Shown: piece by piece, positions 35,493 to 64,000 of the stretch | How positions within the stretch are numbered: the stretch's first letter is position 1 | Layout: the number at the start of each line of letters is the position of its first letter | Source: Promicromonospora umidemergens | Lineage (GTDB): Bacteria; Actinomycetota; Actinomycetes; Actinomycetales; Cellulomonadaceae | Length of the DNA stretch: 64,000 bases | Assembly (NCBI RefSeq): GCF_024171995.1 | Contig: NZ_JAMTCT010000012.1 | Span: forward strand, 120,780-184,779 | Reading direction: 5' to 3' | Position numbers and translations under genes: made by a program | Notes under the pieces: model-generated | Told to the model about the DNA's origin: nothing | The model's database searches: none | Seen by the model: only the letters and a program-made list of their open reading frames with translations

Positions 35493-37594
35493 GCCGGACC
35501 GACCTGGAGGACGTGGGCCACGCGAACCTGCGGGTCGAGCCGGACCCAGGGATGTGCTCCCCAGCCGAAGGTCTCGCCGGACAACAGGTCGTGTGCCACG
35601 AAGAAGGGGGCGTTCTCGTCGCCCTCGGGAGCACTGAGGCCGAGGGCGGAAAGGTCCAGGTGCACTACTGACTCCTGTACGTTCCGCGGGTCCAGGTTCA
35701 GCACGACCACGATCACGTCGTCGTGCCGCGGGGCACGCCGGTCGTTACCCCCTGCTCTCATGGTGCGGCCCTGCGGCGCCGCTGTCGCGCGCGACGCGTG
35801 ATCGGCCGAGATTCGGCGGGAGAAGGCGAGCACGTGGCTGTTCGTCGTGGGATGGACCGTCAGGTTCCGGAGCTGCGTCAGGGCGGGGTGCGCGCGGCGC
35901 ACCTCGTTCAGCTTGCCCAGCAGGAGCGCTATCCCGTACTCGTCGGCGGCCGCCCAGTCCCGGGGCCGGTACTCGTACTTCTCGTTGTCGATCTGCTCCT
36001 CGGCGCCGGGCCGGGGAGTGCTCTCCACGAGCTCGTAGCCCGAGTAGATGCCCCACGTGGGCGAACCGGTGGCGGCCAGCACCGCCCGCACGGCGAACGC
36101 CGCGACGCCGCCGTCGGTCAGGTAGGGCGGCAGGATGTCGTGGGTGGTGGGCCAGAAGGACGGGCGCAGCACCGAGCCCTGCGGCCCGCTCACCTCGGTC
36201 AGGTACTCCGCGATCTCCTCCTTGGTGTTGCGCCAGGTGAAGTAGGTGTACGACTGGTGGAAGCCGATCCGCGCCAGCGTCTGCATCATCGCCGGCTTGG
36301 TGAACGCCTCCGAGAGGAAGATGACCTCCGGGTTGGTCGCGTGCACCTCCGCGAGGAGCCACTCCCAGAAGTCCAGGGGCTTGGTGTGCGGGTTGTCGAC
36401 CCGGAACAAGGTGACGCCCCGGTCGATCCACGTGCGGATCACGTCCAGCACCGCCACGTACAGGCCCTCAGGGTCGGTGTCGAAGCTGAGCGGGTAGATG
36501 TCCTGGTACTTCTTGGGCGGGTTCTCCGCGTACGCGATGGACCCGTCCGCGCGCACCACGAACCACTCGGGATGCTCGGTGACCCAGGGATGGTCGGGGG
36601 AGCACTGCAGCGCGATGTCGAGCGCCACCTCTAGGCCCTGGGCGCGGGCCGCCGCCACGAAGCGCCGGAAGCTCTTCTCCGTGCCCAGGTCGGGGTGGAT
36701 CGCGTCGTGCCCGCCGTCCGCCGACCCGATCGCGTACGGGCTGCCCGGGTCGCCCGGCTGCGCGTCGAGCGAGTTGTTGCGCCCCTTGCGGAACGTCGTG
36801 CCGATGGGGGAGACCGGCGTCAGGTAGACGACGTCGAACCCCATCGCGGCGATGCCCGGCAGCCGCTTCGCCGCCGTCGTGAACGTGCCGGACACCCACG
36901 TGCCGTCCTTCTTCCGGTACGCGCCCTCCGAGCGGGGGAACATCTCGTACCAGGACCCGGCCAGCGCCAGTCGCCGCGACACCCGCAGCGGGTAGGTGTC
37001 CGACGCCGAGACGAGCTCGCGCAGGGGCGCGCGCCGCAGGGCCTCGGTAACCTCGGGCGACGTCGCCGCCGCGAACCGGGCCTGCGCCGGCCGGGTGGCG
37101 TCACCGAGGGCCCGCCGCGCCGCCGTCAGGGCACGCGCGGCGCGAGTGGTCCGGCCCGGAGCGACCAGTGCGTCCTCCGGCACCAGGCGGCAGATCCTGT
37201 CGAACAGCCGCACCCCTTCCGCGAGCATCAGCTCGGTGTCGATGTCTGCGCCGATCTTGATCCCGGCGTCGTGCACCCAGGTGGCGTAGGGGTCGGACCA
37301 GCCCTCGACCCGGAACGACCAGTCACCCTCGGCGTCGGGCTGCAGAAAACCGCGGAAGTGGTCCAGGCCGGGAGAGATATCGGTCATCGGCGCCCACGCG
37401 TGGTCCGAGCCGTCCGGGGCGACGAGCACGGCCGTGGCGGAGACGGCGTCGTGCCCCTCGCGGAAGACCGTGGCGTCGATCGGCACCACCTCGCCGACGG
37501 CGGCTTTCGCCGGCCACCGACCGCCCTCGACCACGGGTGCGACCTCGAGAACGGGGATGCGGCTGATCTGGCCGGGTGTCGTGTGCTGGCTCAC
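35489..37594 (-). CDS. glgE: GlgE alpha-1,4-glucan:maltose-1-phosphate maltosyltransferase
   Basis: GH13_3 enzyme that extends alpha-1,4-glucan with maltosyl units from maltose-1-phosphate (701 aa). Visible motifs are the N-terminal [47 protein letters not shown], nucleophile Asp in [11 protein letters not shown] and acid/base Glu in [13 protein letters not shown] basic, low-complexity stretch near the C-terminus ([20 protein letters not shown]) looks like an insertion in a surface loop. I chose GTG 37594 because TAGCGT on the reverse strand lies seven bases upstream (leaderless); GTG 37603 is the alternative. Confidence 0.96.
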
Positions 37595-37730
37595 CCGGAC
37601 CACGCTATCGACCGGTCAGGGGGACTCGCCTTTCGGGCGCGCCGAGGTTCCGGTGAACGTCGTCGGACGGGTCGGTGAAGCCCTCGACAACAGGTGTGCC
37701 CGCCCGGACATGTGCGTAGTCTTCACTCCC

Positions 37731-40316
37731 GTGAGAGCGATCCGCAGATTCACCGTCCGCACGGTCCTCCCCGAGCAGCTCGTGGCGCTCGACGAGCTGG
37801 CCCAGAACCTTCGCTGGTCCTGGCACGCGCCCACGCGCGAGCTGTTCGAGAGCATCGACCCGGAGCTCTGGGCCGACGTCCGCGGTGACCCTGTCGCCCT
37901 GCTCGCCGCGCTCGGGTCCGACCGCCTCGCGGCGCTCGCGGCCTCCGACGAGTTCACGGGCCGCGTGCATGCCCTGTCCGACGACCTGCACCACTACCTG
38001 CGGGACCCGCAGTGGTACCAGGGTCGGCCGACGGCGTCGGGCGGCGAGCTGCCGCGTGCGATCGCCTACTTCTCCCCGGAGTTCGGCATCACCTCGGTGC
38101 TGCCGCAGTACTCGGGCGGTCTCGGCATCCTCGCCGGCGACCACCTGAAGAGCGCCTCCGACATGGGTGTGCCCATCGTCGGCGTGGGCCTGCTCTACGG
38201 CGCCGGCTACTTTCGGCAGTCGCTCACCCGCGACGCCTGGCAGGTGGAGACCTACCCCCTGCTCGACCCGGACGGGCTGCCGCTCGCGGTCCTGCGCGAG
38301 GAGGACGGCACACCCGCCGTCATCTCGCTCGACCTGCCCGGGGGACGCACGCTGCACGCGCACGTCTGGGTGGCCGCCGTCGGCCGCGTGCCGCTGCTGC
38401 TGCTCGACTCGAACGTGCAGGAGAACGACGAGGCCGCCCGCAAGGTGACCGACCGGCTCTACGGGGGCGGCGGGGAGCACCGCCTGCAGCAGGAGCTGCT
38501 GCTCGGCGTCGGAGGCGTGCGGGCGCTGCGTGCCTGGTCCCGCCTCACCGGTGCGCCGGAGCCGGAGGTCTACCACACCAACGAGGGGCATGCGGGCTTC
38601 CTCGGCGTGGAGCGCATCCGTGAGCTCGTCGGGTCGGGTCTGAGCGTCGGCGAGGCGCACGAGGCCGTGCGTGCCGCCACGGTCTTCACCACACACACGC
38701 CAGTCCCCGCCGGCATCGACCGGTTCCCGAAGGACCTGGTCAGCGCGTACTTCGGCGGCGACAACATGATGGACGGCGTGCCGCTGGAGAGCGTGCTGGC
38801 GCTCGGCTCGGAGGACTACGACGGTGGTGACCCCACCGTGTTCAACATGGCCGTGATGGGCCTGCGGCTCGGTGGCCGGGCGAACGGTGTCTCGCTCCTG
38901 CACGGCCAGGTCTCGCGGGAGATGTTCGAGGGCCTGTGGCCCGGCTTCGACGCGCGCGAGGTGCCGATCACGTCGGTCACCAACGGCGTGCACTCGCCCA
39001 CGTGGGTCGCTCCGCGGCTGGCCGCCGTGGAGGCGGAGCGGATGGGGCTGGACCAGCTCACGGCGCCCGAGGCGTCGTCGGGCTGGCTGGACGCGAGCAA
39101 CGTGTCCGACGCCGAGCTGTGGGCCCTGCGCGGCGAGATGCGCGGCGAGCTCGTGGCCGAGGCTCGGCGCCGGGTGCGCAAGTCCTGGCGCGAGCGCGGT
39201 GCGTCCCCCGCCGAGCTCGGCTGGGTGGACGACGTCCTGTCACCTGACGTGCTCACCATCGGCTTCGCCCGGCGGGTGCCCACCTACAAGCGGCTCACGC
39301 TCATGCTGCGCGACCAGGACCGCCTCAAGGCGCTCCTGCTGCACCCCGAGCGGCCGGTGCAGCTGATCGTGGCGGGCAAGTCGCACCCGGCCGACGACTC
39401 CGGCAAGCGGCTCATCCAGCAGTTGGTCCGGTTCGCCGACGACCCTGAGGTGCGCCACCGCATCGTGTTCCTGCCGAACTACGACATCGGCATGGCGCAG
39501 TCCCTGTACCCGGGCTGCGACGTCTGGCTGAACAACCCGCTGCGCCCGCTGGAGGCGTCCGGGACCTCCGGGATGAAGAGCGCGCTCAACGGCGGCCTGA
39601 ACCTCTCGATCGAGGACGGCTGGTGGGCCGAGTGGTACGACGACGAGAACGGCTGGGGCATCCCGACGGCCGACGGCGTCGAGGACGCCGACCGCCGCGA
39701 CGACCTGGAAGCTGCCGCGCTGTACGACCTCGTCGAGTCCCAGGTGGCGCCCGCGTTCTACGACCGGTCCGCTGACGGCGTGCCCGGCCGGTGGCTCGAG
39801 ATGGTGCGGCACACGCTGGCCACGCTCGGCCCGAAGGTCCAGGCCACGCGCATGGTCTCCGAGTACGTGCACGGGCTGTACGCACCGGCGGCCGAGGCCG
39901 GCCGCACCCTCCTGGCCGACGGGTTCGCCGCGGCGAAGGACCTGGCGGGCTGGAAGGCCCATGTGCGCAGCTCCTGGTCCCAGGTGCGTGTGGACCACGT
40001 GGAGTCGGCGGGCATCGGCGAGGCGGTCCAGGTCGGCGACCGGCTCACGGTGCGCGCCTACGTCTCGCTCGGGGACCTGTCGCCCGACGACGTCGCCGTG
40101 CAGGTGGTGCACGGTCGGGTCACGGAGGCCGACGTGATCGAGGAGTTCGCCGCCGAGCAGCTCGCGTTCACCGAGTCCTACGAGGCGGGGCGGCACGCGT
40201 TCGGCGGGGAGGTCGACCTGGACACGTCCGGGCCGTTCGGCTACACCGTCCGGATCGTGCCGAAGCACCCGCACCTGACGAGCGTCGCGGAGCTGGGCCT
40301 GGTGGCCAACGCCTGA
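37731..40316 (+). CDS. glgP: Alpha-glucan phosphorylase
   Basis: Pyridoxal-phosphate enzyme that releases glucose-1-phosphate from alpha-glucan (861 aa). It belongs to the short bacterial GlgP group: N-terminal DUF3417-like ELAQNLRWSWHAPTRELFE, FSPEFGITSVLPQYSGGLG, HTNEGHAGF and the PLP-site region RPLEASGTSGMKSALNGGLN. GTG 37731 has TAGTCT eight bases upstream, while an in-frame ATG at 37710 would add seven residues. Divergent from the glgE operon, so synthesis and breakdown share a 136-bp control region. Confidence 0.94.
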   Translation: MRAIRRFTVRTVLPEQLVALDELAQNLRWSWHAPTRELFESIDPELWADVRGDPVALLAALGSDRLAALAASDEFTGRVHALSDDLHHYLRDPQWYQGRPTASGGELPRAIAYFSPEFGITSVLPQYSGGLGILAGDHLKSASDMGVPIVGVGLLYGAGYFRQSLTRDAWQVETYPLLDPDGLPLAVLREEDGTPAVISLDLPGGRTLHAHVWVAAVGRVPLLLLDSNVQENDEAARKVTDRLYGGGGEHRLQQELLLGVGGVRALRAWSRLTGAPEPEVYHTNEGHAGFLGVERIRELVGSGLSVGEAHEAVRAATVFTTHTPVPAGIDRFPKDLVSAYFGGDNMMDGVPLESVLALGSEDYDGGDPTVFNMAVMGLRLGGRANGVSLLHGQVSREMFEGLWPGFDAREVPITSVTNGVHSPTWVAPRLAAVEAERMGLDQLTAPEASSGWLDASNVSDAELWALRGEMRGELVAEARRRVRKSWRERGASPAELGWVDDVLSPDVLTIGFARRVPTYKRLTLMLRDQDRLKALLLHPERPVQLIVAGKSHPADDSGKRLIQQLVRFADDPEVRHRIVFLPNYDIGMAQSLYPGCDVWLNNPLRPLEASGTSGMKSALNGGLNLSIEDGWWAEWYDDENGWGIPTADGVEDADRRDDLEAAALYDLVESQVAPAFYDRSADGVPGRWLEMVRHTLATLGPKVQATRMVSEYVHGLYAPAAEAGRTLLADGFAAAKDLAGWKAHVRSSWSQVRVDHVESAGIGEAVQVGDRLTVRAYVSLGDLSPDDVAVQVVHGRVTEADVIEEFAAEQLAFTESYEAGRHAFGGEVDLDTSGPFGYTVRIVPKHPHLTSVAELGLVANA

Positions 40317-40745
40317 CCGAGGCTCGCTCCGGGCGGTGGACTGTTCGGTGTCGAGGCGCAGGTTGGTTGTCGGGCTGGGTGTCGAGGCGCAGGTTGGCTG
40401 TGGAGCCGGACGCCGAACCGCAACGGAGCCGTCAATCAAGGCCCGGATAGACGTGCAGCCTTCGGTTCGGCGCCTGCGGCAACGTCGAACTTGCGGTTCG
40501 GCGGCCGGTCCCACGACCAACTTGCGGTTCGGCGCCAGCCGCCCGGCTAACTTGCGGTTCGGCGGCCACCAGGACGAACAAATTGCGGTTCGACGTCGGT
40601 CCGGGCTGCCTGGCACGCAGCCAGCCTGCGGTTCGGCCCCCGGCCCCCGACGTCGGTATCCCGGCGCACTCGAGCGGTGTCCTCCAGGACGGCCCACTGG
40701 CGGTTCGATTAGGCGAACTGCCCCTCGGGTGGGAAGAGTGGACCC
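40317..40745. other. 429-bp intergenic field holding a periodic repeat array
   Basis: No credible gene. Nearly all of it is taken up by degenerate 31-bp repeats, described in the next entry. The 3' edge (CGATTAGGCGAAC, then GGGAAGAG) probably supplies the promoter and ribosome site for the ferredoxin gene. An open frame across the region encodes only repeat-derived NLRFG-type phrases. Confidence 0.7.
40347..40707. repeat. Converging arrays of degenerate 31-bp units
   Basis: About ten units share a core close to AACTTGCGGTTCGGCG. Three are in reverse orientation, with their CGCA cores at 40357, 40388 and 40419, exactly 31 bp apart. Seven are forward, with TGCG-equivalent positions at 40461 (degenerate), 40492, 40523, 40553, 40584 and 40627, and a last partial CGGTTCG at 40700; the spacing is 31, 31, 30, 31, 43 and about 73. 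The sequence between cores varies. The two blocks face each other around 40440, forming a large imperfect inverted repeat. Confidence 0.85.
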
Positions 40746-40943
40746 ATGAAGATCAATGTGGACCGTGACGCCTGCTGTGGCGCCGGCCAGTGCGCACTGC
40801 TCGCTCCCGACGTGTTCGGGCAGGACGAGGACGACCGGGTCATCCTGCTCGACGAGCGGCCGGGCCCGGAGCTCGACTTCGCGGTGCAGGAGGCAGTGAG
40901 CATGTGCCCGACCGGCGTCATCTGGGTGGACCAGAACGCCTGA
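40746..40943 (+). CDS. Small single-cluster ferredoxin
   Basis: 65-residue ferredoxin of the type often paired with cytochromes P450 in actinobacteria. Cluster ligands are in DRDACCGAGQC near residues 7-15 and SMCPTGVI near residue 54. The pattern C-x5-C with a distant CP and no fourth close cysteine favours a 3Fe-4S cluster. GGGAAGAG precedes the ATG. No P450 or reductase is nearby, so its partner is unknown. Confidence 0.9.
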   Translation: MKINVDRDACCGAGQCALLAPDVFGQDEDDRVILLDERPGPELDFAVQEAVSMCPTGVIWVDQNA

Positions 40944-41220
40944 CGGGCCTCGGGGGGATCGGCTTGGCGGTCTCGATGTCGGCGGCCGCGACGGAGACCT
41001 CCCGCGGCTCCCCGCGGCCGGGCACCGGGTCGGTGCGCAGCCGCAGCCCGGCGTCGGACACCTCCACGATAAAGCCGATCAGGTCCGTCCAGCGGTACGC
41101 CGTGCCGCCGTTGGACACGACAGGGCCCGCTGGCGCGAGCCGGAGCCGGACCACCACCCGGGTTCCGGGCCGGAGGGCGCGCCAACCGCCCGCCGGGACC
41201 GGCGGTGTAGCGAACGTCAC
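40918..41220 (-). CDS. Small conserved protein, SH3-like, resembling a GNAT N-terminal region
   Basis: 100-residue protein with RVVVRLRLAP, RWTDLIGFIVEVSDAGLRLRT and VSVAAADIETAKPIPPRP. These phrases recall the small beta-barrel that precedes the acetyltransferase domain in some actinobacterial GNAT proteins found next to fdxA, so this may be a stand-alone or truncated version; this is recall, not proof. AAGGAG lies upstream of GTG 41220. It is divergent from fdxA, and its end overlaps the 3' end of the small ferredoxin by 26 bp. Confidence 0.68.
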   Translation of the reverse strand: MTFATPPVPAGGWRALRPGTRVVVRLRLAPAGPVVSNGGTAYRWTDLIGFIVEVSDAGLRLRTDPVPGRGEPREVSVAAADIETAKPIPPRPVRRSGPPR

Positions 41221-41360
41221 GTCGATTCTCCTTCCGCTGCGTGAGACCGGTGGGGATCTGACGGTCTTCCGGGAGATACTAGGATCGCGCCGCCGGGTTC
41301 GTCCCGCGGACCGCATCGTGCATGACCCCCCCAGTCCGGACGTGGAAGGACACCCTCGAA

Positions 41361-41678
41361 GTGACCTACGTGATCGCTCAGCCGTGCGTCGACCTCAAGG
41401 ACAAGGCGTGCATCGAGGAGTGTCCCGTGGACTGCATCTACGAGGGCAGCCGCTCCCTGTACATCCACCCGGACGAGTGCGTGGACTGCGGCGCGTGCGA
41501 GCCGGTCTGCCCGGTCGAGGCCATCTACTACGAGGACGACGTCCCCGATGAGTGGAAGGACTACTACCGCGCGAACGTCGAGTTCTTCGACGACCTCGGG
41601 TCGCCCGGCGGTGCCGCGAAGATGGGCATCATCGAGAAGGACGACCCGATGATCGCGGCTCTCCCGCCCCAGGCCTGA
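41361..41678 (+). CDS. fdxA: Seven-iron ferredoxin FdxA
   Basis: 105-residue 3Fe-4S/4Fe-4S ferredoxin. The first cluster region is [20 protein letters not shown] and the second is [20 protein letters not shown]. The C-terminal tail ([18 protein letters not shown]) is typical of the actinobacterial FdxA group. GTG 41361 matches the conserved start (TYVIAQPC) and has GAAGGA about ten bases upstream. dapC follows one base after the stop. Confidence 0.96.
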
Positions 41679-62537: not shown

Positions 62538-64000
62538 ATGGGTCAGCCGACCGAGCGTGACGAACCGCTCGAGCCGACGTCAGACGAGAACGCCGGGGCA
62601 CGACCTGCCCCGGTAACACCTCCCCGCTTGTCCCAGTCACGCCCTGGCAGCGTGCCGAGACAGGTGGCGAAGCCCCCGATGCGGCCGACGGACCCCGGGG
62701 CAGCGCAATCTTCAGTACCGGCCGGTCACCCGACCGCTCAGCCGGCCCCCAGATCCCCAGAGAAGGCCCAGCCAGTGACCCCTTCGGAGCAGTCCGAGGC
62801 CCCCCAGGCCCCGCGCCCGCCCGTCGTGCCGCCCGCAGCAGCGCCCGCGGCAGCCGAGAGCGCCCCCAGGAGCACGGGAGCGGGCGCCGGAGTGCCGGAC
62901 GGCACTCCGAGCAAGCCCGAGCCGTCGACCCCGCCAGTGCCAACGACCAAGCCTGAGCCCCCGAAGAGCGCGACCGGTCCGGACAAGGACGGTCCCGACC
63001 CGGTTGAGGTGCTGCAGACCGTCGTGGAGAAGCTCGCGACGCCCTCGGCCAAGGCACCAACGGCGCCGAGGAACGGTTACACGCCGCGCGTCTTCGCGTT
63101 CGACCGTCCGCCAAAGACCGCACCCGCGGCAAAGAGCGCCGAGAGCCCGAGCGCGGGGCCGCAGAGCCCTGCGACGCCGGCCGCGCCACCGGCCGCCTCG
63201 CCGGCGCCGGCGTCGGCGCCGGTCACCCCCAAGGTAGACCGGCCGGTCCCTGCGACGGGCCAGAGCACCTCCCCCGAGCAGGTGGCGCCACCGGCCACGG
63301 CACGATCGGCGTCGAACGCGCCTGCACCCGCAGCGACGACACCCAGCCCTTCGACGCCCGCAGCGGCGCCGTCCAGCCCCTCGACGCCCGCAGCCGGTGC
63401 GGCAGGAGCGGCCGCGGTAGGAGCAGGTGCGGCGGCCGCCGCAGGTGCGGTAGCTGCTACGGCAGCCCAGGCTCCCGCTGTCCCTGGTTCCGCGCCTACT
63501 GGCCCTGCCCCTGCGAGCGGGCCTGCCCCTGCGAGCGGCCCCAGCCGCGCAGGCTCTGCGCCTGCGAGCGGGCCTGCCCCCGCGGGCTCTGCGCCCGTTG
63601 GGTCCGCGTCCGCAGATTCTGTGGGTGCCGCAGGCCCAGGTCCTGTGCCCGTTGGTCCCGCTGCTTCCGCTGCTCCCGCGGCCTCAGGCCCTGCGCCCGT
63701 TGCTCCCGCAGCTCCGGCGCCTGTCAGCTCTGCGCCTGTCGGCCCTCCGCCCGCTGGTCGTGCGCCTGCCGGCCCTCCGGCCGTGGCAGCCTCGTCCGCC
63801 GGTCCCGCCGCCTCGAACACTGGCTCGTCCGACGGCGCGGCGCGCCCGACCGCTCCGGACACCGCACCCGGCTCCGTAGGCCCGGCCGGGGCGGCGTCGA
63901 GTACGGCACCCGAGAGGCCTGCACCCGAGAGGCCTGCACCCGAGAGGCCTGCACCCGAGAGGCCTGCACCCGAGAGGCCTGCACCCGAGAGGCCTGCACC
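62538..64000 (+). CDS. Pro/Ala-rich protein with APERP repeats (C-terminus beyond window)
   Basis: Open frame running off the right edge (487 codons visible). It begins [20 protein letters not shown] and is dominated by Pro, Ala, Ser and Gly, broken by short ordered-looking stretches such as [20 protein letters not shown] and [16 protein letters not shown]. It ends here in at least six tandem APERP repeats. GGAG lies seven bases before the ATG, and TAGGAT at 62431-62436 is a possible -10. No signal peptide or membrane span is visible so far. It may be the disordered N-terminal arm of an envelope or LCP-type protein whose functional domain lies beyond the window; function unknown. Confidence 0.7.
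63906..64000 (+). repeat. 15-bp tandem repeat encoding APERP
   Basis: GCACCCGAGAGGCCT repeats six times with no change from 63906 to 63995, and a seventh copy begins at the window edge. Perfect identity at the DNA level, including third codon positions, shows recent expansion or active homogenisation. Confidence 0.95.

Follow-up and report, generated by a model that had tools for sequence, protein, structure and literature searches.

An array of helically phased units downstream of a glgP-like gene in Promicromonospora umidemergens belongs to a dispersed, possibly REPIN/BIME-like family

Within the 64,000-nucleotide stretch of Promicromonospora umidemergens DNA analysed here (the window), a glgP-like gene for alpha-glucan phosphorylase and a small ferredoxin gene are separated by a gap with short related units that recur at nearly constant distances, which raises the question of what kind of element this is and what keeps its units in phase. 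Using a position weight matrix (PWM) built from the copies found in the same genome (G000), we detected nine units in this gap (40347-40640; 3 reverse and 6 forward), each about 25 bp long, with the consensus GACGnGCAACTTGCGGTTCGGCGCC. The array and its neighbours are as follows.

37434..40316, plus strand: alpha-glucan phosphorylase gene (glgP-like), upstream neighbour (TIGR02094, 765.5 bits; PF00343, PF11897); start of the ORF set mechanically
40347..40371, minus strand: outer reverse unit rev3 (PWM 19.5 bits)
40378..40402, minus strand: reverse unit rev2, 31 bp from rev3 (PWM 15.0 bits)
40409..40433, minus strand: inner reverse unit rev1, left half of the dyad (PWM 20.2 bits)
40434..40449, no strand: 16-bp dyad centre AATCAAGGCCCGGATA, read from the sequence
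40450..40474, plus strand: inner forward unit fwd1, right half of the dyad, 41 bp from rev1 (PWM 29.7 bits)
40481..40505, plus strand: forward unit fwd2, 31 bp after fwd1 (PWM 30.4 bits)
40512..40536, plus strand: forward unit fwd3, 31 bp after fwd2 (PWM 35.6 bits)
40542..40566, plus strand: forward unit fwd4, 30 bp after fwd3 (PWM 26.2 bits)
40573..40597, plus strand: forward unit fwd5, 31 bp after fwd4 (PWM 31.7 bits)
40616..40640, plus strand: forward unit fwd6, 43 bp after fwd5 (PWM 15.9 bits)
40688..40712, plus strand: last forward unit of the original prediction, left out of the count (PWM 1.8 bits)
40746..40943, plus strand: small 4Fe-4S ferredoxin gene, downstream neighbour (PF13459, PF13370)

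The stop codon of the glgP-like gene lies 30 bp ahead of the array, and the spacings read, in order, 31, 31, 41 (the dyad), 31, 31, 30, 31 and 43 bp. The original prediction, made from the letters of the window, had placed phased units between these two genes, which proved correct, and had described them as ten units of 16 bp, three reverse and seven forward, facing each other at a recurrence of about 31 bp. The three reverse units and the 31-bp steps stand; the forward units number six and the total nine, steps of 41 bp occur as well, the unit measures about 25 bp, and the units point apart, with their GACG ends towards the centre and their GTTCGGCG ends outward. As for the tenth unit (40688-40712), it stands 72 bp (31 + 41) past the last clear unit and is thus in phase, and its right end (CGATTAG) overlaps the leader of the ferredoxin gene, which is also present in species without the array; it was left out because of its score of 1.8 bits and this overlap with a conserved leader. 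A search of positions 39500-41500 of the window against Rfam returned no match at E values up to 1. Elsewhere in the window, a perfect 15-bp tandem repeat (GCACCCGAGAGGCCT, 6.3 copies) occupies positions 63906-64000 and continues into the window end.

The array is one of a large family. With up to 2 mismatches allowed, the 16-base core matched the genome 158 times, against 11 matches for a reversed control pattern, and two cores 30-42 bp apart were found 35 times, against none for the control, which argues that the array is not a product of chance. We fetched 39 loci of this genome, 35 from the core matches listed (the array of the window being L043) and 4 by a model search; 33 of them had three or more units (252 units), so that the genome holds at least 33 arrays. 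At three loci (L040, L041 and L042, on contigs C35, C46 and C47) the core match falls inside an IS3-family transposase gene and there is no array, the family assignment resting on a scan with NF033516 in L040 and on the same protein start being shared by L041 and L042. In a search of open-licence literature, a description of such arrays was not found among listings that give the starts of abstracts.

These arrays follow one plan: reverse units on the left, then a dyad in which a reverse unit is followed at 41 bp by a forward one (66 bp in total), then forward units on the right. The first outward step is mostly 31 bp on either side, and later steps are 31 or 41 bp, that is, three or four helical turns. 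Spacings between the 160 same-strand neighbours of the first 35 loci fell at 30-33 bp in 85 cases, at 39-44 bp in 69 and elsewhere in 6, and the 29 dyads measured 41 bp (n = 23), 42 bp (n = 1) or 72 bp (n = 5), the last being 31 + 41 bp with one unit under threshold. When same-strand spacings of up to 80 bp in the fetched loci were scored as in phase at 30-32 or 40-43 bp, this held for 175/184 spacings in P. umidemergens, 69/77 in G002, 8/8 in G003 and G004 together, and 20/27 in G008, whose arms are less strictly phased. The genome-wide search for the core and for its periodicity, proposed along with the original prediction, thus bore it out. In 61 single arrays AT content is periodic at 10.33-10.5 bp (power 0.56-0.57 versus about 0.22 +/- 0.03 after shuffling), partly because of the unit consensus, and over 62 dyads the commonest bases of the dyad centre form a palindrome (approximately sATCnGGGCCCnGATs). 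Left and right arms are often unequal in unit number and spacing, and some arms (e.g., in L176, L078 and L010) contain nearly identical tandem units. As had been foreseen, the degeneracy of the units, the switch of orientation and the two step lengths are those of neither CRISPR nor a simple tandem repeat, and both were rejected. Nested insertion of dyad into dyad was rejected by reasoning, the inner layer summing to 31 + 31 bp and the next often to 41 + 41 bp.

How far the phase survives divergence was read from 14 orthologous groups comprising 33 loci, in which dyads were sought in a 39-43 bp window. All 31 dyads found were exactly 41 bp, and three of the 33 loci (L222, L215 and L227) had no dyad in that search window. 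Across 11 orthologous pairs, limited to loci where both dyads were recognisable and using the closer dyad at loci with two, we counted 210 substitutions and zero length changes between the 66-bp dyads; other alignable intergenic DNA of the same loci shows 20 indel events per 260 substitutions (0.077 each), a rate that predicts about 16 length changes in the dyads, against the 0 observed. The expectation that phase is kept despite divergence was therefore supported. In 19 orthologous comparisons conservation is lower in the 16-bp centre (58%) than in the units (75%). Many arrays occupy orthologous places in two or three species, and the number of units varies freely among species (e.g., 8, 8 and 3 in the L031 group). 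At variable positions, neighbouring units have an identity of 0.46, compared with 0.36 for units of unrelated loci; this slight likeness suggests that the arms grow by duplication and that part of the phasing is inherited. Judged from the sequences, the phased arms are nevertheless more than decay, as most of the likeness between neighbouring units is gone while the phase is kept. Of the earlier proposal of a nest of decayed palindromes, there remains the nucleus, a dyad that in some genomes is a single near-perfect palindrome; the arms are not mere decay.

We then considered where the arrays lie, using those of at least three units among the first 35 loci with both neighbours called by a codon-usage script, three contig-edge arrays being dropped. 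The 27 arrays of this sample lie between tandem (n = 14), convergent (n = 9) or divergent (n = 4) genes, whereas the 42 gaps of the window are tandem, convergent and divergent in 32, 5 and 5 cases, respectively, indicating that convergent gaps are over-represented and divergent gaps tolerated. The median distance to a gene stop is 59 bp (14 of the 32 distances do not exceed 35 bp, one being to an IS30 fragment), and that to a gene start is 114.5 bp (none of 22 is 50 bp or shorter); this bias could merely reflect promoters needing room. The neighbours scanned are functionally unrelated and include menB, era, glmS, a diacylglycerol (lipid) kinase gene, and sugar porter, TauE-type and ArsR-type genes. 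A gene family common to array neighbours across genera, which could have been a candidate for the binding protein, was sought among 359 called genes and nothing convincing emerged; neighbours common within the genus are explained by the orthology of the loci, and the menB area of G025, a genome of another genus of the family, has its array in another gap.

At given loci the element comes and goes. At the 3' end of menB, a gene whose identity was confirmed and which was compared in 13 genomes, G000 and G002 have arrays, G003 and G012 have a two-unit dyad only, and nine have no unit in the scanned stretch, which after the stop is short in G001. The gap ahead of the ferredoxin gene contains a lone dyad in G003 (20.0 and 11.9 bits, 41 bp) and a weak one in G012 (7.6 and 8.3 bits, 42 bp), the latter also found by the model search; zero units were detected there in G001, G002, G004, G008 and G011, more than 1 kb separates the end of glgP from the ferredoxin gene downstream in G005, G006, G009 and G010, and a ferredoxin match was not found in G007. 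Being absent from many congeners at a given locus, the element is dispensable there. The original prediction had looked to relatives for loss of the array or random spacing of its units as signs of a chance by-product: random spacing was absent, while the array is lacking in some relatives. The menB gaps of G010 (L230), G005 (L239) and G006 (L234) contain, by eye, unrelated palindromes of the GGTCTCGACAAGCTCGACC and GCCGAGTCAGTCGG types, as though species-specific palindromes found a niche at the 3' ends of genes. The menB match of G001 came in two pieces (L241/L242), possibly through a frameshift or an assembly error.

Beyond this species, a genome-wide pattern scan yielded 28 stretches, 18 from P. 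soli, P. iranensis, P. panici and Promicromonospora sp. AC04, and 10 from unrelated organisms with zero dyads and at most 2 units each. Searched with a model of the central block, 10 of the genus's 13 genomes gave matches (E up to 0.01), P. umidemergens among them; the most matches, both strands counted, were in G000 (at least 146), G002 (at least 134) and G008 (at least 54), and four of the ten had one or two weak matches. The family-wide search with the model reported 28 of 200 genomes, an overcount, since 6 of the 13 loci inspected outside the genus, one per genome, were unconvincing; the seven convincing ones (G025, G098, G076, G104, G144, G147 and G080) represent four genera. The middle of the unit is genus-specific (TTGC, ATGC/CTGC, GTCC, CGCC or CCGG, with few loci for some genera), and GTTCGGCG is constant. 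A strict palindrome pattern was found in 2 of 396 genomes of the phylum and 3 of 396 of the order, with many sites only in G618, a genome from another family of the order; this pattern undercounts, as P. umidemergens itself has 0 such sites. G025 keeps the plan with a different core: it has 25 dyads with a single spacing, 50 of the 53 matches to its inner motif ACGATTCA belong to a dyad (control, 0), and its outer units step mostly by 31-32 bp. Seventeen of these 25 dyads lie within 0.8 Mb of the gyrA-bearing contig end (P = 0.0005, with a radius chosen after the data were seen; Kolmogorov-Smirnov P = 0.004), which we take to be the origin region. The G025 dyads crowd 0.3-0.8 Mb either side of coordinate 0, and eight lie at 4.147-4.311 Mb.

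The arrays of P. umidemergens are also associated with an insertion sequence. An IS30-family element (NF033563) is represented by 3 left and 4 right ends, all near contig ends (L243-L249, at the ends of C3, C7, C11, C13, C19, C25 and C31), and all seven detected ends adjoin array units, the C25 end adjoining a single unit. If the element begins at CCCGTTG, six ends lie 9-10 bp from the GACG end of the unit, as expected for insertion in the dyad centre, and the seventh abuts the unit. The C11 and C13 ends stand on either side of a single array, which is intact in G002 as the orthologue L207, and show a possible 3-bp repeat. The element thus appears to aim at the centre of the array.

One reading is that the dyad works as RNA, forming a hairpin in either direction that would terminate transcription or shield the 3' ends of mRNAs, with the outer units as by-products of duplication; we regard this as unlikely, although it is a live rival. 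It would suit the closeness of the arrays to gene 3' ends and the unrelated hairpin-like inverted repeats that G002 and G008 have, by eye, at the same glgP 3' end. Within Promicromonospora, however, covariation between the arms was absent in 62 dyads of five genomes (z = 0.44; 1.19 and 0.85 with G-U pairs) and z was -2.06 for the G008 dyads alone, and symmetry without covariation fits two half-sites of a protein dimer. RNAalifold applied to 38 blocks predicted 8 pairs, only 2 with any compensatory change (covariation term +0.15), which counts against an RNA fold of the 128-bp block; moreover, the unequal arms leave many outer units without a partner at the mirrored distance, 4 of the 27 arrays lie between divergent genes, and a hairpin has no need of helical phasing. 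The relatives speak for RNA: the arms of the 25 G025 dyads covary (z = 5.96 at three variable positions, 0 of 5000 shuffles), and a strict 62-bp palindromic pattern (CGCCGAAC...GTTCGGCG) occurs at 20 sites in G618. In five of these that were read (L164-L168), 24-29 of 31 mirrored positions are paired, part of which is fixed by the pattern itself; L204 of G002 is likewise a near-perfect palindromic dyad, and such palindromes fit a hairpin better than two independent half-sites. Taken together, the G025 covariation and the G618 palindromes suggest that a hairpin stage or role exists in relatives. One of the five G618 sites sits in a local cluster.

A selfish or neutral repeat, with dyads spread by some transposase, arms formed by tandem duplication and a 31/41-bp phase that is merely inherited, would account for the strongly differing match numbers among congeners (all lower bounds for the highest counts), for presence and absence at menB and glgP, for the nearly identical tandem units of L176, L078 and L010, and for each of the genera looked at having its own core. 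We nonetheless hold it to be doubtful, since dyad length is frozen while the sequence changes, steps of 31 and 41 bp dominate though the variable positions have largely decayed, many arrays are placed orthologously in two or three species, and a Y1 transposase match was found in none of the 13 genomes of the genus. A large operator for glgP or the ferredoxin gene, as the original prediction had also suggested, would explain why the array fills the gap between the two, but is very improbable: at least 33 arrays lie beside unrelated genes, among them menB, era, glmS and the diacylglycerol kinase gene, they avoid gene starts, and the five congeners named above have no unit ahead of the ferredoxin gene.

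Our preferred reading, to which we give about an even chance, is that the array is a copy of a dispersed REPIN/BIME-like element whose dyad and phased units are likely bound by a putative dimeric, cooperatively spreading, chromosome-organising protein. A protein dimer would nucleate on the dyad, further copies would line up head to tail along one face of the helix, and the bound protein may wrap or mark the intergenic DNA in the manner of gyrase at BIME-2 sites. Tandem duplication probably lengthens and shortens the arms, with selection then holding the phase. A wider version is more speculative, and we put it forward only tentatively: that in Cellulomonadaceae the arrays are chromosome-wide loading sites of a putative new DNA-organising protein, a dimer that would nucleate on the rigid dyad and spread along phased half-sites, with sites crowded at the origin in one genus, co-evolving with the protein by genus and providing a dedicated IS30-family element with a landing pad. 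Where dispersed bacterial palindromes have been explained at all, the usual account is copying (REPIN/RAYT). A rigid dyad with arrays in helical-turn steps makes the role of such repeats for the chromosome testable, the question being what binds an array of 300 bp. A dedicated protein, if there is one, would represent a new nucleoid or topology system of Actinobacteria, accompanied by an insertion sequence apparently aiming at its centre.

Several known systems resemble the arrays in part. Partition centromeres such as ParR-parC and SopB-sopC consist of direct repeats, oriented and in phase, on which a protein polymerises or from which it spreads. The arrays share the oriented phased repeats, and the G025 dyads crowd near the gyrA end, but here dozens of copies are dispersed over the chromosome. 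Like BIMEs, the arrays are oriented mosaics of REP-like units, intergenic and near gene 3' ends (4 of the 27 arrays lying between divergent genes). BIME-2 elements of E. coli are gyrase sites, and the gyrase motif spans 130 bp, is symmetric and is periodic at 10.75 bp in GC (PMC6379681). The symmetry and the 128-bp core block found here are close to that motif; in contrast, the motif here is strongly sequence-specific, with one central dyad and outward direct repeats in arrays longer than 130 bp, and its period of 10.33-10.5 bp led us to reject the exact gyrase motif. The insertion sequences that target REPs, for which the families IS3, IS110, IS4, IS256 and IS5 are named (PMC1525189), recall the present case in that every detected copy lies inside the repeat, as in the type 1 associations described there; the element here is of the IS30 family. 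Closest, together with BIMEs, are REPINs, defined in PMC8049555 as inverted REP doublets. The 66-bp dyad is an inverted doublet with a short variable spacer, as in a REPIN, and the dozens of intergenic copies, the lineage-specific core and the vertical inheritance are also alike (PMC8049555). The differences are that the Promicromonospora arms do not covary, that polar arms are phased at 31/41 bp, and that a search for the Y1 transposase (PF01797) was negative in all 13 genomes of the genus, P. umidemergens included, and positive in 5 of 14 control genomes, on which ground a RAYT-driven REPIN was rejected. The lack of a Y1 match, the rigid dyad length with drifting sequence and the polar arms in helical steps together point to a dispersed element that has probably been turned into phased, protein-binding arrays.
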